IMG/VR virus record: IMGVR_UViG_3300034104_004745
Span: 64,001-128,000 of that record
Direction: 5' to 3' (one strand)
Origin: a virus
Length of the DNA stretch: 64,000 bases
Part shown: piece by piece, positions 8,534 to 49,988 of the stretch
Position numbering within the stretch: the stretch's first letter is position 1
Layout of the letters: the number at the start of each line of letters is the position of its first letter
Position numbers and translations under genes: made by a program
Notes under the pieces: generated by a model
Seen by the model: the letters and a program-made list of their open reading frames with translations, nothing else
Told to the model about the DNA's origin: nothing
The model's database searches: none

Positions 8534-8556
8534 ACTATTAATATAAGGAATTATTT

Positions 8557-9513: not shown

Positions 9514-11190
9514 CTATTTGTATATCAAGTAGTTACCTATAACAAGGTAATCCATTTCTGTGTTAAAAAATGTTTCTAACGCATCTTTAGGTGTTAATAC
9601 CATTGTTTTATCTTTTATGTTAAATGAGGTATTAAGTAATATTGGGTAACCACTTAATTTTTCGAATTCTAATAATAAATTATAGATCGTAGAATTTTTA
9701 TAAACAGTTTGGACTCTTGCTGTCCCATCTACATGTGTTATCGATGGTAGGTGATCTACATAGTCAGGTTTAACTTTAATGATTTGATTCATATATGGGA
9801 CGTCCCCAGATACATTAAAATATAAGTGTTGTTTTTCCTTTATAACCATAGGTGCAAATGGTCTAAAACCTTCCCTTTTTTTAATCACTTTGTTAATCTT
9901 GTCTTTCATTCCGGGAATTGTTGGGTCTGCTATAATTGATCTGTTACCCAATGCCCTTGCGCCGAATTCGATATGTCCTCTATACCACCCAATAACCTTA
10001 CCTTTTCTTAATTTTTCAGCAACTTTCTTAATTAAAACGTCTTCAGATCTAAACCTAAAGAATTTTAAATTTTTACTATTTTTGATAAAAGTATCATAGT
10101 AATAGCTTGGTCCCAGAAATGGGTTTTTAGGAATTCTTTCCTTTAATTTTTTGTTTTTAACCAAATAATGAATACAAGCCCCAATAGACGATCCAGCGTC
10201 AGATGGGGCTAATGGTATCCATAAGTTATTAAAGTGCGAATTTGAGACTATTTTACCGTTTGCGGTGCCATTATACGCGCACCCACCAGATAAACATAAA
10301 TTACCATTATCGTTTATTATTGAAATCGATTTTATGACCTCAAATAATATTTCCTCATATCGCATTTGAACCGCTGCAGCTAGATCTTTATGATCTTGCG
10401 TTATTTCACTGTCAATAACTCTTGGGTCTAAGTTTAACAACTCTATTAGTTTGTAATTGAACATACTTGTTGTTGATCTATCCCAACAAAATACCTCCAT
10501 ATTACATGTTAATGAACTATTTTTATATGTAATTAGTTTTCTAACTTTTTTTATATATTTTTCCGGGTCGCCATATGGTGCCAACCCCATAACCTTATAT
10601 TCACCCTCGTTTGGTTTAAACCCCAAGAATGCGGTTAATGCAGAATAGAATAAACCCAAAGAATGTGGGTATTCTGCCATGGATATATAATCTATGCCGG
10701 TATTATCCGCTAACCCCATAGATAAGGTGTCGATCTCACCAACACCATCTATAGACAAGCAAACAGCATTTTGAAAATTTGAACTGTAAAAAGAATAATA
10801 TTGATGAGACTCGTGGTGTGTTGAATAAAATATATTGTCAGAGTACTTTTTTAGCTCCTTATTTAAGCTCCAAGTATTCTTTTTTATTTTATACAGTGTT
10901 TGTAATGAGTATATTGGGTTTTTTAATAGTTGTGGTTTTATGTTTTTAAGAACCCTTTTAAGTTTTAGTTCCGGATATTCATAGAAACATATCATTTCAA
11001 TATCATCTCGCTTAATCTTATAATTTTTAATTATATAGTTAAGTGCTTGGTGTGGAAATGAACTATCATGTTTGATCCCTGTAAATTTTTCTTCCTCACA
11101 AGCAAAAACCAGCTGTCCGTTTTTGAATAAACAGACAGCTGAGTCGTGATAGAAAGCGGATATACCAATAATATACTGAATTTTACTCAT
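9514..11190 (-). CDS. Carbamoyltransferase (NodU/CmcH/TobZ family)
   Basis: 558 residues, the usual size of the two-domain NodU/CmcH/TobZ family. The N-terminal Kae1-like domain begins YIIGISAFYHDSAVCLF, and FACEEEKFTGIKHDSSFP and THHESHQYYSFYSS carry the conserved metal-binding His. The C-terminal YrdC-like part includes VIGWYRGHIEFGARALGNRSI and the DxxxPxFxPFAP-like REGFRPFAPMV. Such enzymes use carbamoyl phosphate and ATP to make carbamoyl-adenylate and O-carbamoylate hydroxyls, for example on Nod factors or tobramycin. Here a hydroxyl on a glycan or modified peptide is a reasonable acceptor, but this is inference. No domain appears missing. Confidence 0.9.
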   Translation of the reverse strand: MSKIQYIIGISAFYHDSAVCLFKNGQLVFACEEEKFTGIKHDSSFPHQALNYIIKNYKIKRDDIEMICFYEYPELKLKRVLKNIKPQLLKNPIYSLQTLYKIKKNTWSLNKELKKYSDNIFYSTHHESHQYYSFYSSNFQNAVCLSIDGVGEIDTLSMGLADNTGIDYISMAEYPHSLGLFYSALTAFLGFKPNEGEYKVMGLAPYGDPEKYIKKVRKLITYKNSSLTCNMEVFCWDRSTTSMFNYKLIELLNLDPRVIDSEITQDHKDLAAAVQMRYEEILFEVIKSISIINDNGNLCLSGGCAYNGTANGKIVSNSHFNNLWIPLAPSDAGSSIGACIHYLVKNKKLKERIPKNPFLGPSYYYDTFIKNSKNLKFFRFRSEDVLIKKVAEKLRKGKVIGWYRGHIEFGARALGNRSIIADPTIPGMKDKINKVIKKREGFRPFAPMVIKEKQHLYFNVSGDVPYMNQIIKVKPDYVDHLPSITHVDGTARVQTVYKNSTIYNLLLEFEKLSGYPILLNTSFNIKDKTMVLTPKDALETFFNTEMDYLVIGNYLIYK

Positions 11191-11463: not shown

Positions 11464-11479
11464 TTATATAAATACTTTA
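11464..11479 (-). promoter_or_regulatory. Candidate phage promoter motif
   Basis: On the coding strand TAAAGTATTTATATAA, 13 nt upstream of the 11451 start. It is one of the best matches to the recurring motif. Confidence 0.5.
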
Positions 11480-12208
11480 AATTATTTGTCTTTTTTGTGA
11501 AGTGTCATTTTTTTTGCCCGATCCATAGAATTCTGAGTATAATTTTTCATTATATATAATCGTATAGTCAATAACCTCATGTAAATGCTTTGAAAGGGTT
11601 TTATGCCCATTTTCACTATAATGAGAGTCTTGTACTTTATTTTCGGTTTCTTCTTTGATGGTTTGGATTTTTGGTATGGTTATGACATCCATTCCGGGGA
11701 AAAAGCCAGAAAAAGGTGACCAATGAATTACCAGATTATTTTTAAATGTACGATTTATTAATTTAATTAAACTATTTAATTCATTAACATAGCAAGAATT
11801 ACCGTGTCTATTAACTAAGATTTCTTCCATAGTATTTATTGAAATCCCCATTAAATCACAACTTATTTTTTTTTGGTTATTGTCCCAATTAGAATGCATT
11901 GTGGTAAATTTACCAAATTTATTTGCCAATCTAGCCCTCTCAATACTAGACCAACCAATAATAATAATATCACCATCTTTTATTTCATCTATATTTTTCA
12001 CAATAATCTCAAGTATACTTTGATTATCTGCACCTCCATGCCCCCTATTAATACAAGTATATCTAAAATCTTCAGATAAAAAATCAGTAAAAACTTTAGG
12101 TACGTACTCTTTATATTCAAAGTATTTAGCTCTCCAATCCGATAGTCCTGGGACAGGGGCTAAAGATTGTGTAAAAGAATCACCAAACGCCCAAATTTTT
12201 CTTTCCAT
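11477..12208 (-). CDS. SGNH/GDSL hydrolase-like protein
   Basis: 243 residues. The catalytic GDSF block I (WAFGDSFTQ), the NRGHGGADNQ block with Gly/Asn, the GWSSIERA segment and the C-terminal DSHYSENGH (D-x-x-H catalytic pair) define the SGNH hydrolase fold. Such enzymes deacylate or deacetylate esters, including O-acetyl groups on glycans. In this island, trimming or acyl editing of a glycan is a plausible role. It is preceded by a promoter-like motif about 55 nt upstream. The substrate is not predicted. Confidence 0.75.
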   Translation of the reverse strand: MERKIWAFGDSFTQSLAPVPGLSDWRAKYFEYKEYVPKVFTDFLSEDFRYTCINRGHGGADNQSILEIIVKNIDEIKDGDIIIIGWSSIERARLANKFGKFTTMHSNWDNNQKKISCDLMGISINTMEEILVNRHGNSCYVNELNSLIKLINRTFKNNLVIHWSPFSGFFPGMDVITIPKIQTIKEETENKVQDSHYSENGHKTLSKHLHEVIDYTIIYNEKLYSEFYGSGKKNDTSQKRQII

Positions 12209-12278: not shown

Positions 12279-13544
12279 CTATATCATTTTTTCATTTATG
12301 AATCCGTGTATCTTTAATCCTATCTCATTTTCAAATTTTTCCAATCTTAAAGTATCTAAAGTTTCGTTATATTTCTTAAACTCTCGATACAAATCAAATC
12401 TATTTAAATCATCAACATCACTAATACTAAAAAGATAGATAGAATCTAATAATTCTATTATCTCTTTATTAATATCGTCACTAACACCTAACGATTTTAA
12501 CTCTTGATTAAAGGTTAATAAACGAGTTTTAAACCTATCTTTAATTTCATTAGATATCCATTTACAACTTAAATAATCAGGACCATATATTGGATTTATC
12601 GCCAACATTCTTCTTCGTGAATAATCTATATTTTTTTCAATAAGACCTTGGTTAATTAATTCAAGAATCATATCAAATGTATGTAGATAATTTAGTGCCC
12701 CATAAGAAAAAGTATAAAAAATATGTGAATTAGTTAAAAATTCTGATACTTTTTTAGCATTTGTGATAAAAGTTTCAGTTTTAAATCCAGATCTTATATA
12801 CTCGCCTACACTACCTAAACCGTCTAAACTAGGAAATAATGTGATGTTATTAAAATGAGACCAATAATCAAAAATATGTTTATTTTTAAACGTTATTTTT
12901 GATAAATTGGTGCTATATCTTAAATAAACTTGTTTGTTTCTTTTTATTATCTCATCTAATATTTCATAATGATGCTCACTTATTAATGGTTCGCCACCAG
13001 CAAAATATATTTCATCCACATATTCATAATGATCACCTAATTGTTTTAAAAAATCATTTGTATCATCTAAAGTTATTATTGCTTGGTTACTATGTGACAT
13101 ATTCATACTAACAGCATCATTAAACCAAGATGAACTAAACCCATGATAACACATCCTACATTTAAAATTACATAGATTAGTGATTCTAATATCCCACAAA
13201 TGAAACTTTGTTTCGTCATAATCAACATAGTCAACACATTGTGGATAATCTCTATTTAATCTTTGTCTATATGATTCCGAGTTTAATTTCTCATTATTGA
13301 TACAATTAGAACATTGTTTAACAAAATCACCAGATATCATTTTACTCTTAATATCTTTAGATTTATCTGATTTATAAATCTCATTTAATGTTGATTTATT
13401 AATATTGCCAAGAGGATCATTTAAATCCCAATTACAACACGGAAGAACATTACCATTAGGATGAACATAGACACTCATCCAAGGCGCAACACAAAAAGAT
13501 TTTGAATCAACTAGTAAAGATTTCTTCTCATTTTCATTCATCAC
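12279..13544 (-). CDS. Radical SAM protein, N-terminal twitch-like type (1 of 7)
   Basis: 421 residues. The N-terminal block FCVAPWMSVYVHPNGNV with PCC, then QCSNC, resembles the auxiliary cluster region of twitch-domain radical SAM proteins. The radical SAM motif is CNFKCRMC, followed by FAGGEPL and FPSLDGLGSVGEYIR. The C-terminal region is an alpha-helical extension. The family cleaves SAM to a 5'-deoxyadenosyl radical and modifies a peptide or sugar; the substrate is unknown. It overlaps its neighbour by 4 nt (start at 13544 or 13541), and it is the last gene of the co-translated set of seven. Confidence 0.8.
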   Translation of the reverse strand: MMNENEKKSLLVDSKSFCVAPWMSVYVHPNGNVLPCCNWDLNDPLGNINKSTLNEIYKSDKSKDIKSKMISGDFVKQCSNCINNEKLNSESYRQRLNRDYPQCVDYVDYDETKFHLWDIRITNLCNFKCRMCYHGFSSSWFNDAVSMNMSHSNQAIITLDDTNDFLKQLGDHYEYVDEIYFAGGEPLISEHHYEILDEIIKRNKQVYLRYSTNLSKITFKNKHIFDYWSHFNNITLFPSLDGLGSVGEYIRSGFKTETFITNAKKVSEFLTNSHIFYTFSYGALNYLHTFDMILELINQGLIEKNIDYSRRRMLAINPIYGPDYLSCKWISNEIKDRFKTRLLTFNQELKSLGVSDDINKEIIELLDSIYLFSISDVDDLNRFDLYREFKKYNETLDTLRLEKFENEIGLKIHGFINEKMI

Positions 13545-14749
13545 ATAAAGTAGTTTACTAAAGTTGGGTAATTTGTTTTAACGATATCGATAGTCGATTC
13601 ACTTCTATAACCATCTAATATCGTGAATTTAGTGTATTCTCTTCTTAGTTCATCATCAGTTGGTTGTTTACTGTACATAAATTCAATCAACGCATTGATA
13701 TCGTTTGTTTGTTCCTTAAAATCAAATGTTTCCCAGTGTGATTTTATTCTATCTTTTTCTTCTTTAGGTAACATATAGATTGACATATGTGGTGGGTAGT
13801 GAACAATGTTTAACCAAAAATCAAATAGAGGCGTGTTATCTCTCATCCATTGGATAGTTTTTGGTAACTCGTACGCATTTACCCAAGAAGTTGTATGTGT
13901 GTAGGTAAACCCTAAATTCCTATACTTCTTTCTTAGTTCGTGGTACTTAAATAAGTTTTCTTTTACCTCACCCCACACCGCATTTTTTCTTAGGTACTCA
14001 AACGTACCTTCGGTTCCGTCAATACTTAACCCAATACCAACTGCTTTAAATCCTTCACAGATTTTAATCATTAGATCTTCGTTAAGAATGGTGCCGTTGG
14101 TGGACATATTTAACAATATATTTTTACTATGTCCTTCGTTAATCATATGTGTTAAGACTCTTTCCCAGGTGTTCGAATAGAAAGGTTCCCCACCAACAAT
14201 TTCAAGCCTTCTAACGTGAGGTAACCAAGTATCCATACTAGAAATAAATTCACTTGTTTGGTGACCTGGTTGCCCATGTTTTAACCCGAAATAACGAATA
14301 CCAAATTTTTCCCATTCTGATTCTGGAATATCGTTTACTTCCTTCAACCAACTAGTACTATGACTAGGTGAACAACTTCTACATTTTAAATTACAAGAAT
14401 TATTTAAAATTATCTGGTAGTCTTCAGGATATTCAGGGACTTTACCATAATCGACTGTTGTTCCATTGTTTTTTAAAATTTCAATATATATTTGCCTTTT
14501 GCTTTTATAACCATTCTCTTCATCCTTCCAACACGTTTCACATCCTTTTGGTTTTTCGCCATTTAAAAATTGTGTTCTTAAATTTTCCATGTACTGACTA
14601 TGAAATATGTCTTTAACTGTATCGTTTTGAACATAAAAAAAAGAACCGTCTGGTTTTACTACATAATCTTTATTTATACAACAAGGTTTTACGCTTCCAT
14701 ATGGATCATTTGAAAACCCGACCCAAGGTAGTGGACATATATGTTCCAT
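13541..14749 (-). CDS. Radical SAM protein, N-terminal twitch-like type (2 of 7)
   Basis: 402 residues from the ATG at 14749 (MEHICPLPW); the frame to 14776 overlaps the upstream gene by 26 nt, while 14749 places the family motif at the N-terminus. It has CPLPW...KPCC and CETC as the N-terminal Cys block, CNLKCRSC for the SAM cluster, IVGGEPF, and LSIDGTEGTFEYLR. It shares the S-x-D...Y-[IV]-R motif with all members. It is adjacent to 14751..15944, with stop and start separated by about one nucleotide. Substrate unknown. Confidence 0.8.
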   Translation of the reverse strand: MEHICPLPWVGFSNDPYGSVKPCCINKDYVVKPDGSFFYVQNDTVKDIFHSQYMENLRTQFLNGEKPKGCETCWKDEENGYKSKRQIYIEILKNNGTTVDYGKVPEYPEDYQIILNNSCNLKCRSCSPSHSTSWLKEVNDIPESEWEKFGIRYFGLKHGQPGHQTSEFISSMDTWLPHVRRLEIVGGEPFYSNTWERVLTHMINEGHSKNILLNMSTNGTILNEDLMIKICEGFKAVGIGLSIDGTEGTFEYLRKNAVWGEVKENLFKYHELRKKYRNLGFTYTHTTSWVNAYELPKTIQWMRDNTPLFDFWLNIVHYPPHMSIYMLPKEEKDRIKSHWETFDFKEQTNDINALIEFMYSKQPTDDELRREYTKFTILDGYRSESTIDIVKTNYPTLVNYFM

Positions 14750-14750
14750 A

Positions 14751-15944
14751 TTACTTAAAATATTTTTTCCATTCATTTAAGTAGTCTGTTATTTTTACAT
14801 TTCTAGATGTATCCAATAAATTAACAAACCCATAAAATTTTTCTTCATCATTATTATTTTTTGGCTTAAACAATTCAATTTTTAATCTTTCAACTTCATC
14901 TGGCCTCATGTATTTGATATTAGTAATAATTTCAGTTTTCATATCATCTGGAATAATATTAACCTGTTGAAATGAAGGATAATGTACATAGTTGTGTGAA
15001 ATAACTAAATCATAATCTAATGTGAATTTTTTAAAATTATCAATATTAAAAACATTATACGCACTAACTGTTTGGCAAACTTCTAAATTGAAAATATCTT
15101 TATATTCGACGATTTTTTTAAAATTTTCAAGTATTTGTCCCCAACTAGATCCATGTCTTATATAATCGTTTCTTTCTTCTAAATCATCTATTGATAAGTG
15201 AATTCTAACTTTCCTAAATTTCTTCCATATCTCTATGAATTTATCAGGTACTGCTGTCATATTGATACTATAATGTAAATCAACGTTTCCACTAGTACCA
15301 TCCGAAATAAATTTCTCTAAGAAATACCCGTGTTCCCTAATTAAGGTAGGTTCTCCCCCATTTATCCATATTTCTTTTAGCTTATTACACTTAGTGTATA
15401 GTTCGTCATAGAATGAGTGGTCTCTAAACCATTCAGTTCGTATATCACATTTGAAATAATCGTTTTCAAATTGAGTACCTTTAAATGAATGTATATCTTC
15501 ATTCCATCTATTTGATGAAAAAGGATTACAAGTAACACATTTTAAATTACAAACAGTACCAAGTCTCAATTCAACATAGTTGTAATTCACATCTTTAAGT
15601 GAGCCGTCTTCGTTAGTGTTAGTAAAACATTTCTCAATAAACTCTTCAAATTTTTTATTTGATTCGATTCTTTTTGATTCAACACCACCTTGTTCGTACT
15701 TGTAACATTTTTGACAAACGGATGGGAATTCCCCATTCATCATTTGTTTTCTAATATTATTAAACTTACTAGTATTTGTTATATCATTCAATTTATCTTT
15801 ACCCAAAAAAAGATGTTTACCATCAGGGTGAGCTGCGGTTGAAATACTATTAGTCATATCGGTTATACAACAAGGTGTAACCGTTCCAATTGGGTGTGTA
15901 GCTAAATGTATCCAAGGTAAAACACAAAATGATTTACTTTCCAT
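14751..15944 (-). CDS. Radical SAM protein, N-terminal twitch-like type (3 of 7)
   Basis: 397 residues. The N-terminus FCVLPWIHLATHPIG with PCC and CQKC forms the auxiliary-type Cys block. The SAM cluster motif is CNLKCVTC, followed by INGGEPTLI and LSIDDLEERNDYIRHG. Its C-terminus includes the family's shared FHYP-like VHYPSFQQVNIIP segment, which also appears in the neighbour as VHYPPHMSIYMLP. It is translationally coupled to 15944..17296 by a 1-nt overlap. No partner precursor peptide is evident nearby. Confidence 0.8.
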   Translation of the reverse strand: MESKSFCVLPWIHLATHPIGTVTPCCITDMTNSISTAAHPDGKHLFLGKDKLNDITNTSKFNNIRKQMMNGEFPSVCQKCYKYEQGGVESKRIESNKKFEEFIEKCFTNTNEDGSLKDVNYNYVELRLGTVCNLKCVTCNPFSSNRWNEDIHSFKGTQFENDYFKCDIRTEWFRDHSFYDELYTKCNKLKEIWINGGEPTLIREHGYFLEKFISDGTSGNVDLHYSINMTAVPDKFIEIWKKFRKVRIHLSIDDLEERNDYIRHGSSWGQILENFKKIVEYKDIFNLEVCQTVSAYNVFNIDNFKKFTLDYDLVISHNYVHYPSFQQVNIIPDDMKTEIITNIKYMRPDEVERLKIELFKPKNNNDEEKFYGFVNLLDTSRNVKITDYLNEWKKYFK

Positions 15945-17296
15945 TAAATTAATATTTTACTATTATTTTGCCACCATTGAAGTACTCGTGGGTTTTGACT
16001 GAATATCTCATCAATCACCCCCACATTGTTTCTCCATAAATCAACAGCGTTTAAATTTTTTATTCCTCTTTGTAGCCCTTCTTGCCAATTAGGATACTTC
16101 TCTTGAAAAGTCTGTCTATTTTTTAAATCCTCAAGACACGTTATCCAATAATCATATTTATGATTCTGTTGGATTTTAGGTCTAATATAATCTAAAATAT
16201 CATCAATTACTTCGTTATAAATTTCTCTAGGTAGTACCTGTGGACACATAATGATACTACTATCAAACGCAAATGTGGTTTTAATTAATGTGTGAACATT
16301 TAACTCTAAGGACAAGTCAAATAATTCCTTTAAACTAAAAAGACCTGGTGTTGTGATTGTTAAATCAAACGCAATACCGTAATCACCATATCTTTGATTT
16401 AAGAACATAAAGTCCTTAAAGTTTTTGATCCATTCATCCCATCTTATACCGTGACGAACATATTCAACTATCTTACCTGTACCATCAATTGATGCGCATA
16501 TTTGTACTTGTTTGAAATGTGGTAAGAGAGTTCTTAAATCATAGTCTTTATAAGTTGTTCTTGAGAAATTAGAATTATATCTAACCCACACATTTTTTGC
16601 CCCACCTGTTTTAACTAGGTAATCCATAATCTCCCAGTGAATGTCCCACATTAATGGTTCGCCACCAACCCAATAAATCTCCTCAATTGTACCATTCTTA
16701 ACCGCTTCCCATAGTTCCTTTTCAGCAACGTCTTTTTGAAATGATTCAATAATTGGTTTATTTTGTTTTTGTGCCCAGTAATCGGTATTACCCTGTGCAT
16801 CATAGTGGCCCATAGATCTTCTTTCTGCTTCCCAAGAAGATGATAATTGATCCCCACACATTCTACATTTGAAATTACATAAGTTTTTAATTCGATAATC
16901 AAATGAAATAGGTTTCATCTCAGTATGACCGTCATCATTTGTCTTTTCAAATGCTTCCTCAATCTTGTGTGGAAATAGTGTTTTATTAAAGTAGTCACGG
17001 TATATTGAAATGTTCAATAGTTTATCGTTACAAACAGCACACTGAGGTATTTCTTTACCTTCCATTAAATCTTTTCTGATACCTTTCATATAATCAGAAT
17101 TCCAATGGTCGTCTAATGTTCCTGGATTATATTGTGAACCATTATCAGCACTTTCAGAATCAAGGTATTGTGTTGCCCAAGATGCTTTCTCCCTACTCGC
17201 ACAACAAAGTCTTCTTTCACTTTGTGGTGAAAGATAGGTGTGTGACCAAGGAGCCATACAAAATGTTTTATTTCCCTCAGATGGTTTTAATTTCAT
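15944..17296 (-). CDS. Radical SAM protein, N-terminal twitch-like type (4 of 7)
   Basis: 450 residues, slightly longer than its neighbours. FCMAPWSHTYLSPQSERRLCC and CAVC replace the PCC form, and CNFKCRMC is the SAM motif. WVGGEPL and ASIDGTGKIVEYVRHGIRW follow. The extra residues lie between the SAM cluster and the GGEP motif. The start overlaps the previous gene's stop by 20 nt. Same family and unknown substrate. Confidence 0.8.
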   Translation of the reverse strand: MKLKPSEGNKTFCMAPWSHTYLSPQSERRLCCASREKASWATQYLDSESADNGSQYNPGTLDDHWNSDYMKGIRKDLMEGKEIPQCAVCNDKLLNISIYRDYFNKTLFPHKIEEAFEKTNDDGHTEMKPISFDYRIKNLCNFKCRMCGDQLSSSWEAERRSMGHYDAQGNTDYWAQKQNKPIIESFQKDVAEKELWEAVKNGTIEEIYWVGGEPLMWDIHWEIMDYLVKTGGAKNVWVRYNSNFSRTTYKDYDLRTLLPHFKQVQICASIDGTGKIVEYVRHGIRWDEWIKNFKDFMFLNQRYGDYGIAFDLTITTPGLFSLKELFDLSLELNVHTLIKTTFAFDSSIIMCPQVLPREIYNEVIDDILDYIRPKIQQNHKYDYWITCLEDLKNRQTFQEKYPNWQEGLQRGIKNLNAVDLWRNNVGVIDEIFSQNPRVLQWWQNNSKILI

Positions 17297-18533
17297 CTAT
17301 ATTTTCTTTTTCAAATACCTCAATAAGATAAGGATATAATGACCTCCAATCTGTGTTTCGTCTTTGGTCGATTTTATCTAAATAATCCCTCAATCTTTTA
17401 AGTTGTGTTTTATCAACATCGTGAGTTGTCACTTGTTTCTCAAAACCATATAAGTAAAGTTTTCTGTGATCTTCTTCCGGTACTGCGGAAAGTAAATCTT
17501 CAAAAAATGATTTAGCGTGATGCCCTAAATTTTCAGGATTCATAAACGTTGGTCTAGCAACTGTGTTCCAACCAAAATCAACTTTCTTTATTTTATTCCA
17601 CTCGATTATCTTTCTGTAGAATTCACCCATCGTAGGTAAAGTAACAGGTGTAATGGTTGAGTGTACTGATATCTTTACAAGTGGTGATGTTAAAAGAGTA
17701 TTAAAATTAGTTTCCCATTCAATTAAATCCATACCAAATCTAGCAAATTCCGCTTGTGGCCCCCAACAATCCATACTGCAAACAATTTCAAAAGATTCTA
17801 ATTTTTTTTGTTCAATTAGTTTTGAAATTCTTTCTATTTTTTCTTTGAATTTACTTGGGTTGTGTTTGAGATTACTGAATATTTTAAAATTTGTGTTTGG
17901 ATGTTCATGTCTTTCAAAAAATTCTAAACATTCCTCAAATTCTGGTTGATACATAGGTTCACCACCTAAAATTTGGAAATGATATAAATCTCTAGAATTT
18001 TTTTCCATCCAAACCCAGAAATCCGCTTTAAGTTTGTCATAATCATCCCTACCGTGGAAACCATCCAAATCGTATTCACTCTCAAGTGGCCCAAATTTTT
18101 CAATCTCATTTTGAATTAGTGAGCTAAAAAAAGGTGAACAATAAACACATTTTTGATTACAAACATTAGTAAAATACACCTCCAATATTCTTGGTGTTAC
18201 ACTTAATTCTTTTGGATTAAGTTTTAGCTCTTTAGGTGATAATAAACTATCATTAATGTATGCTGTTCTTTCACTAATTCCTCCAGAGTCTTCTATTTTT
18301 TTACAATATTCACAACCATTACCTGGCCATTGTCCATCTAACATTTTTTGTCTATCCGATAATTTACCAGGATGGTTATGGAAGTCTTGCATGTGTTGAG
18401 TAACATCCCATCCCTTACATCTATGACAACTTGACGATGTTCCAACAGACAAAAATAAAGTGCTCCATGTCCATTTAAATTGACAAGCAGTTTGTGTTTT
18501 AATTGGAAATATATCTTCTATATTATGTGGCAT
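17277..18533 (-). CDS. Radical SAM protein, N-terminal twitch-like type (5 of 7)
   Basis: 418 residues. It belongs to a second subgroup: the N-terminal block is ACQFKWTWSTLFLSVG with SCHRC instead of PCC, then CEYC. The SAM motif is CNQKCVYC, followed by ILGGEPMYQ and CSMDCWGPQAEFARFG. The two-subgroup split suggests different substrates or carriers. It is joined to the next gene by a 1-nt overlap (TAATG). Confidence 0.8.
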   Translation of the reverse strand: MPHNIEDIFPIKTQTACQFKWTWSTLFLSVGTSSSCHRCKGWDVTQHMQDFHNHPGKLSDRQKMLDGQWPGNGCEYCKKIEDSGGISERTAYINDSLLSPKELKLNPKELSVTPRILEVYFTNVCNQKCVYCSPFFSSLIQNEIEKFGPLESEYDLDGFHGRDDYDKLKADFWVWMEKNSRDLYHFQILGGEPMYQPEFEECLEFFERHEHPNTNFKIFSNLKHNPSKFKEKIERISKLIEQKKLESFEIVCSMDCWGPQAEFARFGMDLIEWETNFNTLLTSPLVKISVHSTITPVTLPTMGEFYRKIIEWNKIKKVDFGWNTVARPTFMNPENLGHHAKSFFEDLLSAVPEEDHRKLYLYGFEKQVTTHDVDKTQLKRLRDYLDKIDQRRNTDWRSLYPYLIEVFEKENIDEIKTI

Positions 18534-20101
18534 TATTTATTTTTTATAAAGTTTAACATTTCATCTTGTTGGTCAGGTTCAACAAAGTCTTGTGCTCCCG
18601 GGTTTGCCCATTGAGGGTCCAAAACCCACCCTTCTTTCTTAGCTGTTTCCATAACTTCATCAACATACCTATTTGATTTTGCATCATCACCATCAATAAC
18701 ACTTTTTAATGGTTCTAATTTGGTTTCAGGTATTGAATCCCACCATTCTTTTAACTCTGGAAATGTCTCAACAAAGTTTTTGTTTCTTCTTATATCATAT
18801 TGAGTGTAAAAAGATTTCCAATCTCTTTCTCTAGTCTCAATTGAAGATGTAAAACTATGCCCCGTTTCTACTTGTCTAATATAGGCCACCATTCTTAACA
18901 TACCATCTCTTTCCCAATCTTGGAAAAAATTAGCACCGCCGTCGTAGTTTTTATTTATCCAAGCTTCAATGTGATCTGCTCTTTCTTCCCTAATATGTTT
19001 TGGTAATGTAACAATAGACATAAAAGATGGAAAACGAAGAATATTGAAAGAACAATGTGGGGATGGTGTTTTATATTTTCTTTTTAGTCTTAAGATTTCA
19101 TCCATAAAATCTGTAATTTTAAATAAACAAAGAGCATTAATTGTCATCATACAATTTATAGATTTAACATTACCTTCACTTAACATTCTTTCAACGTTTC
19201 TTAACCATTTTTCCCATACAAGGCCGTCACGAATGTATTCAGCTTGAGCTCCAACAGTTTCACAACTGGTATAAAGATGAAAACTTTTAATATTATGGCT
19301 AGCTTTTATTAACTCTTCAAATAACTCATCTTTTTGACCTAAATTAGAATTAACAGCGAAATCAACATTACAGTCTTTATGATTTTCCCACCATTTCATC
19401 AATTTCCAAAAATCTTGTGACATGGTTGGTTCACCACCAGTTACTCTTAGTTCTCTTAAACTAAACTGCAATTCACCTTCCCACCATTTCCAAAAAGCCT
19501 CAACATATGGATTATCTTTATTTTTCTTACCATATGGTAATGCATGCGCACCATCATGTTGAAATGCTGCTGCACCGTCACTAACTAAATTTTGATATGG
19601 GCCATTCTTTTTAATGTCATTTTGCCACGTTGTTGAAAACGATGCGTTACAATACGAACATGCAAAATTACAATTAGGGTCAAAAGCAATCTCTAATGTT
19701 TTTAGATCAACATCTTCTGTCCAACCAAATTTAGTTTTAGCCTCCAACAATTCCTTGTCAGTGTAAATTATAGATTTATAAACTCTATCAGATACTTTAT
19801 CAGGGCCAAGATCTTCAATTTTCCAACAATACTCACACTCTTTAGGTCTTTCACCCTCAAGCATTTGTTTTCTGATTAATTTTTTATATTGAGTATTATG
19901 GATAGCTTTATAGCTTTGTGCAACCTCTTCTAAAGGTATTTTATGTGCAGGTGGGTGATGACAACTAGCCGTTGTACCATTTCCTAACCATATGGTTGCA
20001 TTATACCATTTAGCACCGCAAAATGCTGGTGATATTGAATTAACTGCACGATTTCTATATTCAATATAGTTTTCGCCTTCTTTTTTTGAGAAAATACCCA
20101 T
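18533..20101 (-). CDS. Radical SAM protein, N-terminal twitch-like type (6 of 7)
   Basis: 522 residues, the largest of the set. FCGAKWYNATIWLGNG with SCHHP and CEYC form the N-terminal block, and CNFACSYC is the SAM motif. VTGGEPTMS and TSCETVGAQAEYIRDG follow. A roughly 80-residue C-terminal extension of unknown function is present, rich in Asp/Glu and ending DQQDEMLNFIKNK. It shares the SCHHP form with 20670..22052, making those two close paralogues. Confidence 0.8.
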   Translation of the reverse strand: MGIFSKKEGENYIEYRNRAVNSISPAFCGAKWYNATIWLGNGTTASCHHPPAHKIPLEEVAQSYKAIHNTQYKKLIRKQMLEGERPKECEYCWKIEDLGPDKVSDRVYKSIIYTDKELLEAKTKFGWTEDVDLKTLEIAFDPNCNFACSYCNASFSTTWQNDIKKNGPYQNLVSDGAAAFQHDGAHALPYGKKNKDNPYVEAFWKWWEGELQFSLRELRVTGGEPTMSQDFWKLMKWWENHKDCNVDFAVNSNLGQKDELFEELIKASHNIKSFHLYTSCETVGAQAEYIRDGLVWEKWLRNVERMLSEGNVKSINCMMTINALCLFKITDFMDEILRLKRKYKTPSPHCSFNILRFPSFMSIVTLPKHIREERADHIEAWINKNYDGGANFFQDWERDGMLRMVAYIRQVETGHSFTSSIETRERDWKSFYTQYDIRRNKNFVETFPELKEWWDSIPETKLEPLKSVIDGDDAKSNRYVDEVMETAKKEGWVLDPQWANPGAQDFVEPDQQDEMLNFIKNK

Positions 20102-20104
20102 ATT

Positions 20105-20686
20105 TTAAATTTTATGTATAAAGTTACAGTTTCCTGTTAGATCAAAGCTTTTATTGTGAATGTACTTTTCAAAAGTATGTTCAGCTATTATTTCATTGTC
20201 TTTCTCAATTAAGAGATATTCTAATATAAATGAAAAATAGTTTAAATTAAAGCCGTTTTGTGGGAAATTACCTGAGCCAAATATTATGTGAGATTCATTA
20301 TTTCTCGCTAATTTCTCAATGATTTCATGACTTATTAGTACCTCATCATTTATTGATAAAGTAATATTATTATCGATCTTATTTATTTCTAAAACAGTTA
20401 TTTTATTGGGTTCTAGAGAAAAATTAGCTTGTAGATACTTTGAATCTTTAGTGTTATCAGTTAATATCAATGTAACATAATTTTGATCAAAATCAACACC
20501 AAAATATGATGGTAATTTAGAAAATAATGTAGATCTTTTTTCTATCTTTTCCTCAGTTTTAAAGATCATTTTAAATTTAAAATTACCATCGTAATCAAAG
20601 ATTTTATTAGCGGGAAAATCAATAAAATTCGCGACTAAAATATCGGGCCACATTAGCCAAGGTTCACCTTTATTTATTTTTAACAT
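20105..20686 (-). CDS. LamG-like (concanavalin-type) protein, standalone
   Basis: 193 residues from the ATG at 20686; the frame to 20776 would overlap the upstream gene by 107 nt, and 20686 gives a normal 17-nt overlap. The beta-rich pattern includes DYDGNFKFKMIFK, ITLSINDEVLISHEII and IIFGSGNFPQNGFNLNYFSF, and it ends FTEKYIHNKSFDLTG-like. It resembles a LamG/concanavalin jelly-roll domain, like those in the fibres and galactosyltransferases. It has no signal peptide. Possibly a carbohydrate-binding partner for the flanking radical SAM enzymes. Only the fold call has support. Confidence 0.5.
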   Translation of the reverse strand: MLKINKGEPWLMWPDILVANFIDFPANKIFDYDGNFKFKMIFKTEEKIEKRSTLFSKLPSYFGVDFDQNYVTLILTDNTKDSKYLQANFSLEPNKITVLEINKIDNNITLSINDEVLISHEIIEKLARNNESHIIFGSGNFPQNGFNLNYFSFILEYLLIEKDNEIIAEHTFEKYIHNKSFDLTGNCNFIHKI

Positions 20687-22052
20687 AATTGTATAATTTT
20701 TCAAATTCTGGAAAGGTTTCCAAAAAATTAGTTCCTCTTCTTCTATCATGTTCGTCAACAAATAAAATAAAATCATTTCTATTTAAGTCTACATTGAAAT
20801 CATCTTCACTTATTGAATAATCATATAGTCTCTTTATTTTTTGTACTTCGACGTCTGAAAATCCATAATTGTCATGATTAAAACTAGGTGATGCATGATA
20901 AAACACCTTTTTAGCCATATCTAAAATTAAATCTTTATGATCTTTTTCTAGAATTTTAACAGACATGTGGGAAGGCCACCTTAAATAGGTGGTATCTAAC
21001 TGCACAGCAGATATCCAATATCTTTGTCCGTTATGATATTTCTTTTTTAGTTCGAAAACTTTATCTATAAGTTTTGAATAACCAAAAACAGACATTGCAT
21101 TAAATGTTGCCATTATATTTATTGTTACTTTAGGTAATTCACTCAAAATATATTCAACATTTTCTAAAAATAGATCAAAATTTAAACCATTTCTAATATA
21201 TTCGGCTTGACTACCCCATGACTCACAGGAAGTAAAAATAATAAATTCATTTACCTTTTTTTCATTTATTATTATTTTTGCTTTCTCAACAAATTTCTCA
21301 ATTAAACTTTTAGGTGAACCTAAATTAGTGTTAATGGAGAAATTAAGTTGTCTATTTGGGTTTTCATTTGTACATAAAAAATCTAAAACTTCCCAAGTAT
21401 CTTTAGATAATAATGGTTCACCACCAGTAATTCTGAATGTATGTAAGTCTCTATATAATTCTGGCCACCAATTCCAAAAAGAATCTACATAAGGATTTTG
21501 TTCGGAATGTTTATATGGCATTTGACCAGATTTTCTTAAATGCTCAATTTCATTGAACTTAAATGAAGTTGGATAAGCACCATAACGTTCGATCTCCTCC
21601 ACCCATTTGGACGAAAATGACGGGCCACAATATGAACATTTGAAGTTACATGTATTTGAGAAACTTACTTCAACATATTTTGGATTATAATTTGCTCTCC
21701 AGTCTGCTGTTTTAATTTCATTTAAAAATGGTTTAGACCACGGTTCACTACTTTTAAAAATTCTATCTGAATGTGAATTTGAATTCTCTTCAATTTTCCA
21801 ACAATAGTTACATTCACCTGGTTTTATACCAGATAACATTTCTTTTCTAACCTCCTTTTTGTACCTAGTATTATGTAAAGCTGTTGGATTGTTTTTTATT
21901 TCACTTAAAGGTATTTTATGTGGTGTTGGATGATGACAAGAATGTGTCATACCATTATGTAAATGCATTGTTACTTGCGTCCATTTTGCAAGACAAAACC
22001 CACAACCAACACTGTCTAATTTTTCTTTTATATCGTCGTGATCTCTTTTCAT
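20670..22052 (-). CDS. Radical SAM protein, N-terminal twitch-like type (7 of 7)
   Basis: 460 residues. FCLAKWTQVTMHLHNG with SCHHPTPHKI, then CNYC, CNFKCSYC, ITGGEPLLS and TSCESWGSQAEYIRNG. Its nearest relative is 18533..20101 (SCHHP subgroup, about 40-50% similar by eye over the first 300 residues). The C-terminus FPEFEKLYNYV is equivalent to FPELKEWWDSI in the paralogue. The start overlaps the upstream galactosyltransferase stop by 4 nt. The substrate is unknown. Confidence 0.8.
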   Translation of the reverse strand: MKRDHDDIKEKLDSVGCGFCLAKWTQVTMHLHNGMTHSCHHPTPHKIPLSEIKNNPTALHNTRYKKEVRKEMLSGIKPGECNYCWKIEENSNSHSDRIFKSSEPWSKPFLNEIKTADWRANYNPKYVEVSFSNTCNFKCSYCGPSFSSKWVEEIERYGAYPTSFKFNEIEHLRKSGQMPYKHSEQNPYVDSFWNWWPELYRDLHTFRITGGEPLLSKDTWEVLDFLCTNENPNRQLNFSINTNLGSPKSLIEKFVEKAKIIINEKKVNEFIIFTSCESWGSQAEYIRNGLNFDLFLENVEYILSELPKVTINIMATFNAMSVFGYSKLIDKVFELKKKYHNGQRYWISAVQLDTTYLRWPSHMSVKILEKDHKDLILDMAKKVFYHASPSFNHDNYGFSDVEVQKIKRLYDYSISEDDFNVDLNRNDFILFVDEHDRRRGTNFLETFPEFEKLYNYVKNK

Positions 22053-23443
22053 TTCATTTTTACATTTATGAATTTTGTATTTTCATATTGATTACTATCA
22101 ATATTAATAATATCTAATGTGTTCAATACTTGCTTCAAACCATCATTTTTATAATCAATTTTTTTCTGCTGCATTTCAGTAACAAATCTTTTTTCATTCC
22201 TAGCGGTTGTTTCACCTTTAGCCCATGTGCCATTAACAAATCCTTCATCTATATGTGGTAAACAATAAAATTTACTCTCTCTTCTATATGGTACAACATT
22301 TTCAATAATTTCAATATCCTCATTTGTAAATGTGACATTTTGATTAACAAAATCTTGAGAATTGAAGTCACAATCTAATACCAAATTTTCTTTATTATCG
22401 GCTAAGTCAGATATGTTTGAAAAATACTTGTTATATATTTTCACATCACATATTTTCCCTTTGTAATAGACATTAGAATGGTTGCAGAACCCAAGTAAAA
22501 ATGGCTTAACGGAATCGTGAGCTTTTAAATCATTTTTAACAGGAAATGGGATATTTTGTTTCACACCATTCATTTGACTAATCAATTCGTCATTTACATA
22601 AAAGTATGCATTTTTTTCTTCATTATCAAAACTAAAAACTATTTGTGTCCACATACCCTCAAATCTCTTAGCCCAGTTATAATGATGCATCCCATTTCTA
22701 TCAAACAATTGCATAGTAACTGCTCTAGAATTATTAAAAGAAACCCCCCAGGTCCAGCTTCCGTCTTTTCTAATTAATGGATACTCAATGAATTTCTTTT
22801 CAACATCACCCACAAGCCAAATTGGGACTTTATGGTCTTGTTGTTCCGCATTGAATGTGATGGTTATTGTATGGTCGCCGTGTAAACAAGAACTTATTTC
22901 TCTGTTCGTTGATATTGCTAGATAAGAATTATCACCATTAAAATTAGCAACCAATTTATCAGCTACTTTTTTAATTATTCGACCAGTTGTTAGAGACTCA
23001 AAATAACATCTCCAAAATAGATCATCATCTTCCTGTCCCCAATCCCAATAATCATTTGAATATCCGTTTGTTAGATATGCTTGTTCTTTATTAAACAACA
23101 CAACACCACCGAAGTACTGATCATAACCTAAATTATAACCGTACTTTGATAATTTAGTTGCGATATGTATCGGTGTTTCTTCCGGATAAGAATAGTCCGC
23201 TTCTTGATCTGGTAGCATATCAACATCGTGCCAGGCTATGTAATCACAACCATCTTCAAATGCAATATGTGCTGCAATATTTTTCATTGCACCGCGGTTA
23301 AATAATTTATCATCAATTTGATGTCCAACATAAAAGGAATGTTCGATACCTCTTTCATTTAAATGTTTGGTTAAATGTGGTATCAATCTATCGATATGTT
23401 CTTTTCTGTTTCTATATGGTATACAAATTCCTAATTTATGCAT
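22049..23443 (-). CDS. Beta-1,4-galactosyltransferase-like enzyme with an inserted LamG domain
   Basis: 464 residues. Residues 1-160 match family GT7: IPYRNR, then FNRGAMKN, the metal-binding HDVDMLP, YFGGV and NGYSNDYWDWGQEDDD. Residues about 165-385 are a LamG-like jelly roll (segments AKRFEGMWTQIVFSFDNEEK and FYVNDELISQMNG). The GT7 C-terminal part then resumes: CLPHIDEGFVNGTWAKGE and NEKRF...DGLKQVLNTL correspond to the H...RF...DGLNSLTY end of animal enzymes. So the LamG is inserted in the catalytic domain. It would add a sugar to an unknown acceptor. Coupled to 23443..24870 by a 1-nt overlap. Confidence 0.75.
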   Translation of the reverse strand: MHKLGICIPYRNRKEHIDRLIPHLTKHLNERGIEHSFYVGHQIDDKLFNRGAMKNIAAHIAFEDGCDYIAWHDVDMLPDQEADYSYPEETPIHIATKLSKYGYNLGYDQYFGGVVLFNKEQAYLTNGYSNDYWDWGQEDDDLFWRCYFESLTTGRIIKKVADKLVANFNGDNSYLAISTNREISSCLHGDHTITITFNAEQQDHKVPIWLVGDVEKKFIEYPLIRKDGSWTWGVSFNNSRAVTMQLFDRNGMHHYNWAKRFEGMWTQIVFSFDNEEKNAYFYVNDELISQMNGVKQNIPFPVKNDLKAHDSVKPFLLGFCNHSNVYYKGKICDVKIYNKYFSNISDLADNKENLVLDCDFNSQDFVNQNVTFTNEDIEIIENVVPYRRESKFYCLPHIDEGFVNGTWAKGETTARNEKRFVTEMQQKKIDYKNDGLKQVLNTLDIINIDSNQYENTKFINVKMK

Positions 23444-24870
23444 TATATTCCAACATTAACGTGTAAAATTTTATTATTGTATATTTCACCATATTCAATG
23501 AAATTTAAATCAGACAAACCATCTGTTTTCATTAATTGGATATTTTGTGAAACCTCATTATGAAACCTTAGTTGATTCCATCTCGTCGCCTGATCTTTCC
23601 AACGATTACCTAAAAATCCATTTTCTTCATGTTTTAAAGATTTAAATAATGATATTCTTCTGTATGGTATTTTAACTTTTACACTATAATCATATTTTTG
23701 ATTTATTATTTCGCAATTTACAATCTCCCCATCATTTCCATTATTTGTTAAATCTTTCAATTTATAATTTTCAATATGATCCGCATCATAGTATATTTTA
23801 AGTGAATCTTTTGACTTATATTCACCGAATGATTCATTTAAATAATGTTTCGTGTTGTGTGATATTTCTTTAATTTCATCATCAGTAAGAATGTCGTCAT
23901 AATAAGCGAAAGAATCTATTTTTCCATTAAAAAAATTAGGTATATTTTCTCTACCCGGATTACCAGCACCTAAATAAAAATTTGGTTCTTTTCTATAAAA
24001 ATATAATTTTTTAAATTGTTCAGTTTGGCCTAGAAATTCACCATCTTGGTATACTTTAATAACATTATTTTCTTTATCTAAAACAACTACCATATTTGTT
24101 TTATAGTTTGTTTTAATTTTAGAATTAATAAAATATGGTTTGTACAAATTATCAAAAGCGCAAAAATTATATCTCATAAATGAATTATAACAAATTGCAA
24201 AATCCCATCCTGGTATACTAAACACGGTGAACTCATCAGATTCTTTTTTATGGTTTAAAATATTCTTTTCCGGGTAAAAAGAAACAAAAAAAGTGGCATT
24301 ATTATTTAAATCTATTGTATTATCACAGTTAACGTAAGCATTAACACCATTGAAACTTAATGCGTTACCGACCCTACCAAAGTTTTTAAATTCAAGTGTG
24401 TCTAAGTCTAAACCATTAACTCTACATCTTAACAAAAGCTCGGTATCTTCATAACCCCATCCCCAATACTTGTTTGAATATCCATTAATTTTTTCAAAGT
24501 CTTCTATTGTGAACATTGTAACCCCACCAAAATATTCATCAAATATCTCTCTAGTTTTCTCACCTTTTTCCAATACAAAATTGGTTGCTAAATGTAATGG
24601 TTTTTTTGAATATGAATAATCAACATTTATTGGTAACATGTCAACATCATGAAAAACAATATAGTCACAGCCCAATTTTTTTGCATAGGTATACCCAATG
24701 TTTAATAACATTCCTCTATTGAACTGTTTAGCATTATCCTGATTGACTATAATAACATCATAATCAATTTCCCTATCTTTAAAATATTGAGTTATGTGAT
24801 TTGAAAATTTTTTTAAATCAGTTTCTCTATTTCTATAAGGAACAATAATACCTAGCTTATGCTTATCCAT
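23443..24870 (-). CDS. Beta-1,4-galactosyltransferase-like enzyme with an inserted LamG domain (paralogue)
   Basis: 475 residues from the ATG at 24870; the longer frame begins at a TTG. The architecture matches the downstream neighbour. GT7 motifs are VPYRNRETDL, FNRGMLLNIGY, HDVDMLP, YFGGV and GYSNKYWGWGYEDTELLLRC. LamG starts near NALSFNGVNAYVNCDNTI and runs to about residue 385. The GT7 end, SLKHEENGFLGNRWKDQATR and later LMKTDGLSDLNFIEYG, follows. Overall similarity to its neighbour is modest, so the duplication is old. The two share an insertion site, arguing for a common ancestor already carrying LamG. Confidence 0.75.
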   Translation of the reverse strand: MDKHKLGIIVPYRNRETDLKKFSNHITQYFKDREIDYDVIIVNQDNAKQFNRGMLLNIGYTYAKKLGCDYIVFHDVDMLPINVDYSYSKKPLHLATNFVLEKGEKTREIFDEYFGGVTMFTIEDFEKINGYSNKYWGWGYEDTELLLRCRVNGLDLDTLEFKNFGRVGNALSFNGVNAYVNCDNTIDLNNNATFFVSFYPEKNILNHKKESDEFTVFSIPGWDFAICYNSFMRYNFCAFDNLYKPYFINSKIKTNYKTNMVVVLDKENNVIKVYQDGEFLGQTEQFKKLYFYRKEPNFYLGAGNPGRENIPNFFNGKIDSFAYYDDILTDDEIKEISHNTKHYLNESFGEYKSKDSLKIYYDADHIENYKLKDLTNNGNDGEIVNCEIINQKYDYSVKVKIPYRRISLFKSLKHEENGFLGNRWKDQATRWNQLRFHNEVSQNIQLMKTDGLSDLNFIEYGEIYNNKILHVNVGI

Positions 24871-25069
24871 TAATTGTTGGGTCTTTTGGTTTAACGGTAT
24901 TATGCCATTCTGATAAATAATATTGGATTCTATCGCTCCACTCCTGTTTATCAATTTCTTCAAACCAAATGGTTAACGCATCTAATGAATTTGCGATTTT
25001 TTCTAACGCTTTTACTTTTCTTTCTTCTAGTTTTTGAAGTTGTTCTTCTTTTTCTACTTTTGTGCTCAT
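24863..25069 (-). CDS. Small coiled-coil protein, unknown
   Basis: 68 residues, starting MSTKVEKEEQLQKLEERK and continuing KALEKIANSLDALTIWFEEI. The helical, charged N-terminal half is coiled-coil-like. It overlaps the galactosyltransferase start by 8 nt, so could be an accessory or chaperone for it. No family recognised. Confidence 0.6.
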   Translation of the reverse strand: MSTKVEKEEQLQKLEERKVKALEKIANSLDALTIWFEEIDKQEWSDRIQYYLSEWHNTVKPKDPTING

Positions 25070-25917
25070 ATTGACATTATTTTTTTTATTAGTTTATCCC
25101 ATTGCCTATATCTTCTGTATTCTGCTTGACCATCACTGGATTCAAACATAAACTCTGGGTCGTTTAAATCAATTTTAAATTTTGTTTTAAAAAGTTCTTT
25201 ATACATTGTTCTATATTCATCAGAATATGCATATTCCTTACTTACTGATGCAACAGATTTTATTCTGTCTATAGATGTTTTATCCCATTTGAAATGATGA
25301 ACTTGAACAAATCTATGTGGGTGAATTAATGGGTGATTCCATCCTTGCCATCTCCACGTTGTTTGTCCATTTATTTTAGCATAATGCTGTCCTGCAGTTA
25401 TTTCAACATAACCTTTCATAACACAAACCTTATTAGGACAGGCTTTACTCATTGGATATCTAAAAAATCCCATATTGGGGAATTGTTTAAAAATATTAAC
25501 GTCGTCCTTTAGCTCTGAAAATTCACCATCTAGACCTATTCTGTCAATAAACCCACCCCTAACTAAATCCCAACCATATTCTTCACATGTTTTGATAATG
25601 TTGGCTAAACTATCATCTGGATATAAATGAAATTCATCAATATCGGCTATAACCCACCAATCATTTGGTTTTTTCGATTTAACCATATTGTATAGTGCAG
25701 TTACCTTTTCCCAATCAAAAGCACGATCTTCAATAGTTTTAACGATTTTTACATTTTTGTATTCTTTAACCAATTCTTTAACATCACTGATTAATGTAGG
25801 ATGTACAACAGATTGATAAACAATTAGTTGTATCTCGTCAACATACTTTGAATAATGTTCTACAAAATGTGGGATAAGGTTTGTTCCGTGACCTATAACT
25901 GATAAAGCTCTAATCAT
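25066..25917 (-). CDS. Glycosyltransferase family 2/92-like protein
   Basis: 283 residues. NDWWVIADIDEFHLYP gives the D-x-D-E metal-binding motif typical of GT92/GT2-like (DUF23 or Glyco_tranf_2_4) enzymes. The N-terminal segment RALSVIGHGTNLIPHFVEHY and QVHHFKWDKTSIDRIKS near the C-terminus (H and Lys/Arg acceptor motif) fit that family. It presumably adds a hexose to a glycan being built. Start overlaps the small coiled-coil gene by 4 nt. Confidence 0.75.
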   Translation of the reverse strand: MIRALSVIGHGTNLIPHFVEHYSKYVDEIQLIVYQSVVHPTLISDVKELVKEYKNVKIVKTIEDRAFDWEKVTALYNMVKSKKPNDWWVIADIDEFHLYPDDSLANIIKTCEEYGWDLVRGGFIDRIGLDGEFSELKDDVNIFKQFPNMGFFRYPMSKACPNKVCVMKGYVEITAGQHYAKINGQTTWRWQGWNHPLIHPHRFVQVHHFKWDKTSIDRIKSVASVSKEYAYSDEYRTMYKELFKTKFKIDLNDPEFMFESSDGQAEYRRYRQWDKLIKKIMSI

Positions 25918-26642
25918 TTTTTTCGGTTAATAATGGTGACACCGCTCGATGACGGTTTATCCATTAATATACGAAAATTATGTAAATTAATCAAGTTCCA
26001 GTCTGGATTTTCTTCAAGTTCTTTAACAAACTTGGATGGGCCATCAAAAGAGTGATGGTCTTTTTTTGCGTCTTCAGAAACTAATAAGGTTTCTTCATAA
26101 TTTGAATCGGTGTCATGAATAATGATAACCCCGTTGTCAGATAGTATTTTTGAATATAGATCAAAATCGGTTTTAACCCCTTCATAAGAATGGTCTCCAT
26201 CGATCCAAAGTAAATCTATTTTAATATCTTGTCTAATAAAAAAGTCATGGTAGGCATCGACTGAAGTCGCCTTAATAAGTCGCGGGTAAAACGTGCTCCT
26301 GAAGAATGAGGACTCGTTTTCAAGGTCGTTAGGGCCACCAATACCATTACAAGCATCGACAAGATAAGTGCTGCCAATATCCCCCCAATTATAATCACTG
26401 TTTCCATCAAATATTTTTTGTTTATGTAAATCAACTCTTGCTTGTGTCATTATTCTGGGAATGAAACCACCGCCAGACCCAATACAAACACAATTTTTTG
26501 CTCTCATATGCTGTATAAGAGAATACACAATAATACCGTCTCCCATATGTAAATCTGTGGCGCCATGCGTCCAGCGATAAGGTACAGGTTCATCATTATT
26601 GTTAGTGATGTTCTTTCTAATATATTCATTATTCGTTATCAT
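25914..26642 (-). CDS. SAM methyltransferase / cephalosporin-hydroxylase-like Rossmann protein
   Basis: 242 residues from the ATG at 26642, which overlaps the previous stop as ATGA; the frame to 26660 begins with TTG. VCIGSGGGFIPRIM is the SAM-binding loop, LLWIDGDHSYEGVKTDF is the D-G-D-H-x-Y-E family motif of Methyltransf_24-like proteins, and VIIIHDTDSNYEE follows. This family O-methylates sugars or small molecules. Its acceptor in the phage is unknown. Co-translated with 26639..27382 and the glycosyltransferase. Confidence 0.75.
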   Translation of the reverse strand: MITNNEYIRKNITNNNDEPVPYRWTHGATDLHMGDGIIVYSLIQHMRAKNCVCIGSGGGFIPRIMTQARVDLHKQKIFDGNSDYNWGDIGSTYLVDACNGIGGPNDLENESSFFRSTFYPRLIKATSVDAYHDFFIRQDIKIDLLWIDGDHSYEGVKTDFDLYSKILSDNGVIIIHDTDSNYEETLLVSEDAKKDHHSFDGPSKFVKELEENPDWNLINLHNFRILMDKPSSSGVTIINRKK

Positions 26643-49715: not shown

Positions 49716-49988
49716 TTACAGATATTTTTTTATTTTTTCTATCGCTTCTTCTTTTGTGTTAAAATCTCTCCCAGCAACAAATATGGGACCAGAAAGCGTT
49801 TCTGGATCTTGTAAATATACAGTTGGTAAAGCGTCTAGGTTTGTTAACTTAACAACTTCATCATAAACTTTTCTATTTTTATTAACTTCAAACTCATCAT
49901 AAGCAATCCCCTGCTTATTTAATTCTTCCTTCAATATTTTACAATGAGAACAGCCATTAAGTGTGAAAATATTAATAGTGTATGCCAT
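49716..49988 (-). CDS. Glutaredoxin-like protein
   Basis: 90 residues. FTLNGCSHCKILKEELNKQG carries the CxxC (CSHC) redox site, and ALPTVYLQDPET is the cis-Pro loop. Likely a dithiol/GSH-dependent reductant. It directly follows thioredoxin, so the two may share partners such as a ribonucleotide reductase elsewhere in the genome, or the disulfides of virion proteins. Only the family call is supported. Confidence 0.8.
   Translation of the reverse strand: MAYTINIFTLNGCSHCKILKEELNKQGIAYDEFEVNKNRKVYDEVVKLTNLDALPTVYLQDPETLSGPIFVAGRDFNTKEEAIEKIKKYL

Follow-up and report, generated by a model that had tools for sequence, protein, structure and literature searches.

Seven near-contiguous genes of a single radical S-adenosylmethionine (SAM) enzyme family, N_Twi_rSAM (NF033640), lie on the minus strand at positions 12279-22052 of a 64,000-nucleotide viral DNA stretch (hereafter, the window), which represents bases 64001-128000 of the 198,825-base virus record IMGVR_UViG_3300034104_004745. 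Four gene classes of this stack keep one order in every viral contig in which it could be tested, next to sugar-handling genes. We therefore lean towards the view that a T4-like phage carries the stack within its host-recognition region as a tailoring cassette for a surface glycan or an activated sugar; its substrate and reactions are what we infer from sequence.

Composition of the N_Twi_rSAM stack

The stack contains seven complete open reading frames (ORFs) of 397-522 amino acids, transcribed in the order 7-(LamG)-6-5-4-3-2-1. Neighboring radical SAM genes overlap by 1, 1, 4, 20 and 26 nt, the sole interruption is one LamG-fold gene, and gaps do not exceed 3 nt. Such an arrangement is probably that of a translationally coupled cassette. 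The ORFs, coordinates, 1-26 nt overlaps and LamG-like break given in an initial annotation of this DNA were all confirmed. That annotation counted eight radical SAM genes in total; the CxxxCxxC motif is indeed present in all eight proteins, but the eighth is outside the family by score (61 bits, with a curated cut-off of 170 bits) and lacks GGEP. A ninth, weaker radical SAM gene lies outside the window, at ca. 51.9-52.9 kb of the record.

All seven stack proteins score above the NF033640 cut-off (226-342 bits) over nearly the full model, so that the profile search for a twitch-type family returned a single family rather than unrelated radical SAM families. Each protein carries exactly one CxxxCxxC, a motif found in 0.5% of shuffled proteins and invariant across all seven classes, and exactly one GGEP. 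Each also has an S-x-[D/E]...[Y/F]-x-R motif, which had first been described in the narrower form S-x-D/E...Y-[IV]-R; this form fails in gene 2 (YLR) and gene 5 (FAR). The Pfam Radical_SAM model matched all seven proteins, three of them slightly under its cut-off.

The extra N-terminal cysteine block noted at the outset is real: cysteines C18, C37, C78 and C81 (gene 1 numbering) are invariant among the seven stack proteins, and from them an auxiliary [4Fe-4S] cluster is predicted beside the SAM cluster. These cysteines are also kept within classes; in classes 3 and 5 the first one misses the 97% threshold, which is probably an effect of truncated sequences. Genes 1-4 have a PCC-like form of the block, genes 6 and 7 the SCHHP form and gene 5 an SCHRC form. 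The division into two subgroups is borne out by the tree, where genes 5, 6 and 7 fall together in a clade (support 1.00) and gene 5 has its own clade (support 1.00). In genes 1-3, a Pfam SPASM half-domain at residues 7-83 (in gene 1, residues 18-81, 45.3 bits) precedes the Radical_SAM domain; genes 4-7 gave no match to Pfam SPASM. The classical SPASM/twitch layout, with the auxiliary domain after the radical SAM domain, was not found in the stack proteins. Models of the named maturases PapB, StsB, YhhB and AlbA gave just 20-34 bits against cut-offs of 340-850, and the BtrN profile matched the auxiliary domain weakly (27.6 bits). A gene 4 AlphaFold model (predicted local distance difference test, pLDDT, 92) retrieved only remote radical SAM matches in Foldseek.

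Rates of nonsynonymous (dN) and synonymous (dS) substitution were estimated against L031, the closest relative found, for genes 1-5 and against L018 for gene 7. The values were dN 0.02-0.09 and dS 0.7-1.0 for genes 1-5, and dN 0.22 and dS 2.6 for gene 7. The stack genes are thus under strong purifying selection where tested. The possibility that they are dispersed pseudogenes was ruled out, since frames are intact, dN is far below dS and both catalytic and auxiliary cysteines are kept. Recent tandem duplication was also rejected: paralogues are 18-31% identical to gene 1, while orthologues reach 96% identity.

Core order and paralogue classes in viruses and bacteria

Four scans of IMG/VR produced 159 loci after duplicate removal, the window included. 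Single proteins served as queries, the seven-protein alignment being too diverged for a collection scan, and class was assigned by the nearest window paralogue at ≥30% identity, which makes the assignment of distant members approximate. Stacks of 2-11 radical SAM genes recur among these loci, in uncultured viruses that are apparently largely marine, and gene 4 has at least 598 relatives in IMG/VR. The suggestion that such a stack is unusual in a phage finds no support: contigs of uncultured viruses commonly have stacks of similar or greater size, a 12-gene example was published in 2017 (PMC5332604), and Bdellovibrionota chromosomes hold even larger sets.

The core order is 7-(LamG)-6-4-3, with further radical SAM genes inserted, and no exception to it was met in any contig tested. 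In 89/89 contigs class 7 lies upstream of class 6, in 83/83 class 6 lies upstream of class 4, and in 84/84 class 3 lies downstream of class 4. The order was kept in every cluster when contigs were grouped at 90, 70 or 60% class 6 protein identity. Accessory classes are present or absent depending on the contig. In the tree, which spans diverged contigs, classes 2, 3, 4, 5 and 6 are supported; class 7 together with its relatives forms a grade inside the SCHHP group, not a single clade. Paralogue classes thus appear to be separate old lineages. Many stacks sit just before the tail-sheath gene.

Gene 7 had no match in the phage collection, and matches to gene 3 there were limited to two Vibrio phages and one fragment. 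Vibrio phage K566 (OZ196521.1, 161548-178879) has several N_Twi_rSAM genes, two over the cut-off and three nearly adjacent. Most of the ca. 40%-identical relatives of gene 5 come from loci L072-L110, apparently of a different phage group, where the neighboring genes encode a small acidic protein, one of 150 aa and, in some cases, RecA. Separately, several proteins at L010 (8841-9623) and L011 (4316-7414) have similar short leaders at their N termini (e.g., MKILITENQLKNLL, MRFIFNEDQIVRL).

A genome scan detected N_Twi_rSAM relatives in Bdellovibrionota and other assemblies, although some matches look like phage contigs. Eight genomes had 10-37 family matches each, with 13-37 in those named as Bdellovibrionales, Bdellovibrionia and Deltaproteobacteria. 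All bacterial genomes are metagenome-assembled, so binning errors may have occurred. In one Bacteriovoracaceae cluster, members of classes 6, 4 and 3 are arranged in order, and a class-7-like gene immediately precedes a further class 6 gene; a family-2 glycosyltransferase and an NTP-transferase gene are ca. 6 kb away from this cluster. A Bdellovibrionia genome has, directly upstream of an N_Twi_rSAM gene, a member of the GT-A-like family found upstream of phage stacks.

One can imagine that the paralogues do unrelated jobs and are together merely because accessory genes pile up in a variable phage island. The coming and going of accessory classes among contigs would agree with this, as would Bdellovibrionia islands, which carry N_Twi_rSAM genes on both strands. 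Yet the core order has no exception in the 83-89 contigs compared or, once these were clustered, in any lineage, and 387 of the 388 adjacent pairs run in the same direction, with overlaps in 335; this explanation is improbable and already disfavored. Since conservation is separate for each class and the core order does not vary, the multi-step radical pathway proposed in the initial annotation is plausible as a multi-enzyme pathway; parallel tailoring of different residues fits as well as a single pathway does. More tentatively, many viruses and Bdellovibrio-type bacteria might have in common a modular assembly line of radical SAM enzymes, built from a fixed core of four and from exchangeable extras, which would make heavily modified surface sugars via successive radical reactions.

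Gene neighborhood and proposed function

The radical SAM genes and their neighbors are listed in Table 1.

Table 1. Radical SAM genes and associated features of the window (positions are those of the window).
Feature	Position	Strand	Basis or remarks
Eighth, divergent radical SAM protein, outside stack	491..1522	-	NF033640 61 bits; CxxxCxxC, no GGEP
O-carbamoyltransferase, NodU/TobZ/GdmN type	9514..11190	-	Carbam_trans_N/C >200 bits; PDB GdmN 2.8e-80, TobZ 4.6e-59
SGNH/GDSL-like protein directly downstream of stack	11477..12208	-	GDS motif only; no Pfam match
Gene 1, accessory class, GTG start, 421 aa	12279..13544	-	NF033640 316 bits
Gene 2, accessory class, 411 aa	13541..14776	-	NF033640 297 bits
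Gene 3, core class, 397 aa	14751..15944	-	NF033640 342 bits
Gene 4, core class, 450 aa	15944..17296	-	NF033640 320 bits
Gene 5, accessory class, SCHRC variant, 418 aa	17277..18533	-	NF033640 226 bits
Gene 6, core class, SCHHP subgroup, 522 aa	18533..20101	-	NF033640 313 bits
LamG-fold protein, 193 aa from likely start (ORF-list start 20776)	20105..20686	-	AlphaFold pLDDT 91; Foldseek best, laminin-G/LNS domains
Gene 7, first radical SAM gene of stack, core class, SCHHP subgroup, 460 aa	20670..22052	-	NF033640 335 bits
GT7 glycosyltransferase-LamG fusion, 4-nt overlap with gene 7	22049..23443	-	Glyco_transf_7N/7C above cut-off; Laminin_G_3 just below
GT7 glycosyltransferase-LamG fusion	23443..24963	-	Pfam Glyco_transf_7N/7C and Laminin_G_3 above cut-off
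Probable glycosyltransferase (Glyco_tranf_2_4), syntenic upstream gene	25066..25917	-	Pfam 26.0 bits, cut-off 27.5; family in 28 loci
Methyltransferase (Methyltransf_24), syntenic upstream gene	25914..26660	-	Pfam 50 bits; family in 24 loci
Glutaredoxin domain, possible Fe-S support gene	49812..49970	-	PF00462 41.7 bits

The LamG-fold gene is present in 32 loci, always ≤150 bp from a radical SAM gene and within the stack in 30; sequence profiles gave no convincing PDB relative for its product, but the fold search did. In 27 contigs the stack is directly preceded by the GT7-LamG fusion and in 32 by a probable GT-A-like family; it is followed by a 432-aa family in 32 and by SGNH-like proteins in 11. 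Carbohydrate assignments are firm for GT7, the carbamoyltransferase, UDP-glucose/GDP-mannose dehydrogenase (near stacks in relatives), NAD-dependent epimerase and the amidinotransferase of relatives, which is closest to inosamine-phosphate amidinotransferase (4e-90). A sugar-aminotransferase-like neighbor is assigned more weakly. The tail-sheath protein of the record matches those of T4-like phages (best a Microcystis phage, Flavobacterium phages and cyanophages), and the record encodes both an A-type Fe-S carrier and a glutaredoxin.

Several other genes of the window were also recorded. An APS-kinase-like protein (8099-8560; Pfam APS_kinase, 61 bits) possibly represents a sulfation step in the same island. 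Downstream of the stack are three small proteins matching 2-oxoglutarate (2OG)-Fe(II) oxygenases (2171-2695, 2723-3289 and 6288-6929), two of them below the Pfam cut-off. A probable fiber protein of 1766 aa (29160-34460) has an endosialidase-type chaperone domain at its C terminus, and three Laminin_G_3 genes in a row (34514-36725) adjoin its gene. A σ70-family factor (60624-61433) resembles the RpoD/RpoS and MzaA models, with scores below their cut-offs.

Because a conserved four-gene order is found beside sugar-handling genes in relatives, the radical SAM enzymes probably decorate a surface sugar chain. The GT7-LamG proteins would start or extend a glycan or activated sugar, to which the LamG protein may bind. 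Each radical SAM enzyme would then abstract hydrogen from a different sugar residue or position, with oxidation, epimerization, deoxygenation or coupling as candidate outcomes, and tailoring would be finished by the carbamoyltransferase and, in relatives, also by the amidinotransferase, sugar aminotransferase and sugar dehydrogenase. Loading of the many clusters may be assisted by the A-type Fe-S carrier and the glutaredoxin that the phage itself encodes. The product would probably alter the phage fibers or the infected host's surface and so affect adsorption or superinfection.

Several observations weigh against glycan tailoring. Carbohydrate-type neighbors (at least one gene of the firm or weaker families) are found in 82/94 loci with three or more radical SAM genes and in 17/18 loci with one or two; therefore, linkage alone cannot separate function from regional habit. 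The two commonest neighbor families are weakly supported as glycosyltransferases, a label made weak by profile searches that gave no convincing solved relative for either. No substrate or reaction is recorded for NF033640 members in the open-licence PubMed Central (PMC) papers found. The best PDB folds for gene 4 include, along with the sugar-nucleoside enzyme BlsE (template modeling, TM, score 0.32-0.42), peptide-modifying SuiB and CteB, all with low TM-scores. Finally, glycosyltransferases are generally abundant in marine myophage host-recognition islands (PMC7029224), so the sugar-gene linkage may be regional rather than functional.

The SuiB and CteB matches would suit enzymes that modify proteins or peptides, introducing radical cross-links, epimers or oxidations into virion proteins (LamG, fiber) or into an unlinked ribosomal peptide. 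SPASM/twitch radical SAM enzymes frequently act on peptides, and this explanation is further favored by the 2OG-oxygenase genes at 2171-3289 and 6288-6929 and by Asp/Asn beta-hydroxylase genes that adjoin stacks in one phage contig and in Bdellovibrionia. Nevertheless, the stack, with its gaps of ≤3 nt, has no space for a precursor-peptide gene (though an unlinked precursor is possible), the small conserved acidic ORF near related genes belongs to another phage group, and no neighbor matched a peptide-maturation family in the profile scans made. We consider protein or peptide modification rather unlikely.

The nature of some neighbors also brings to mind a diffusible small molecule, e.g., an aminocyclitol-like or guanidino-sugar natural product, instead of surface decoration: the amidinotransferase is closest to a streptomycin-type enzyme, the carbamoyltransferase is near TobZ/GdmN, there is a sugar-aminotransferase-like gene, and the auxiliary domain matches BtrN weakly. 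However, the amidinotransferase and aminotransferase occur in a minority of contigs and were not seen beside the stack of the window, many stacks directly precede the tail-sheath gene, and no exporter was identified near the stack, though no search was aimed at exporters. We regard such a product as unlikely.

Relation to known systems

Both phages with as many as 12 radical SAM genes (PMC5332604) and pelagimyophage islands with radical SAM cassettes (PMC7029224) are already published. The novelty appears to lie in the conserved core order and in the cassette shared with bacteria: in the open-licence PMC literature, no published description was found of the paralogue classes, fixed core order, LamG/GT7 linkage or shared bacterial cassette. 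The N_Twi_rSAM family is abundant and has no function recorded in the papers found; through core order, class-wise conservation and the bacterial cassette, what had been a list of radical SAM genes becomes a defined unit whose partners can be tested. If glycan tailoring is correct, the uses of radical enzymes would widen to phage or host surface chemistry, with a handle on altered host recognition; should the assembly line exist, stacked radical glycan tailoring would represent a new biosynthetic logic as well as a means of diversifying phage-host recognition.

The T4-like environmental genome TARA_ERS488813_N000010, described in 2017 (PMC5332604), has 12 radical SAM genes, an A-type Fe-S carrier and a glutaredoxin, and shares with the present record its T4-like nature, multiple radical SAM genes, the carrier and the glutaredoxin. 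The comparison is by description only, and the available passages give a gene list without order, classes or neighbors. The pelagimyophage host-recognition cluster reported in 2020 (PMC7029224) is likewise a variable island with fibers, glycosyltransferases and radical SAM cassettes, features that the present phage shares; lipopolysaccharide modification and coinfection exclusion were proposed for its glycosyltransferases. That account, in the passages available, is without the core order, the twitch family or the LamG/carbamoyltransferase partners.

Chromosomal islands of Bdellovibrionota hold the same family in stacks, and the Bacteriovoracaceae cluster has classes 6, 4 and 3 and a class 7 relative; they differ in their higher copy number (13-37 in most genomes), in the use of both strands and in the presence of Asp/Asn beta-hydroxylase and amidinotransferase-like genes. 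BtrN, BlsE and DesII share with the stack proteins radical SAM chemistry on carbohydrate-type substrates (proposed here) and weak profile or fold similarity. Their auxiliary domain is C-terminal or absent, and since similarity is low, the stack proteins are probably not members of this group. The NF033640 model agrees with the stack proteins in a near-full-model match and in the auxiliary-cluster domain at the N terminus; its name states no function, whereas the window holds an ordered set of seven diverged paralogues.

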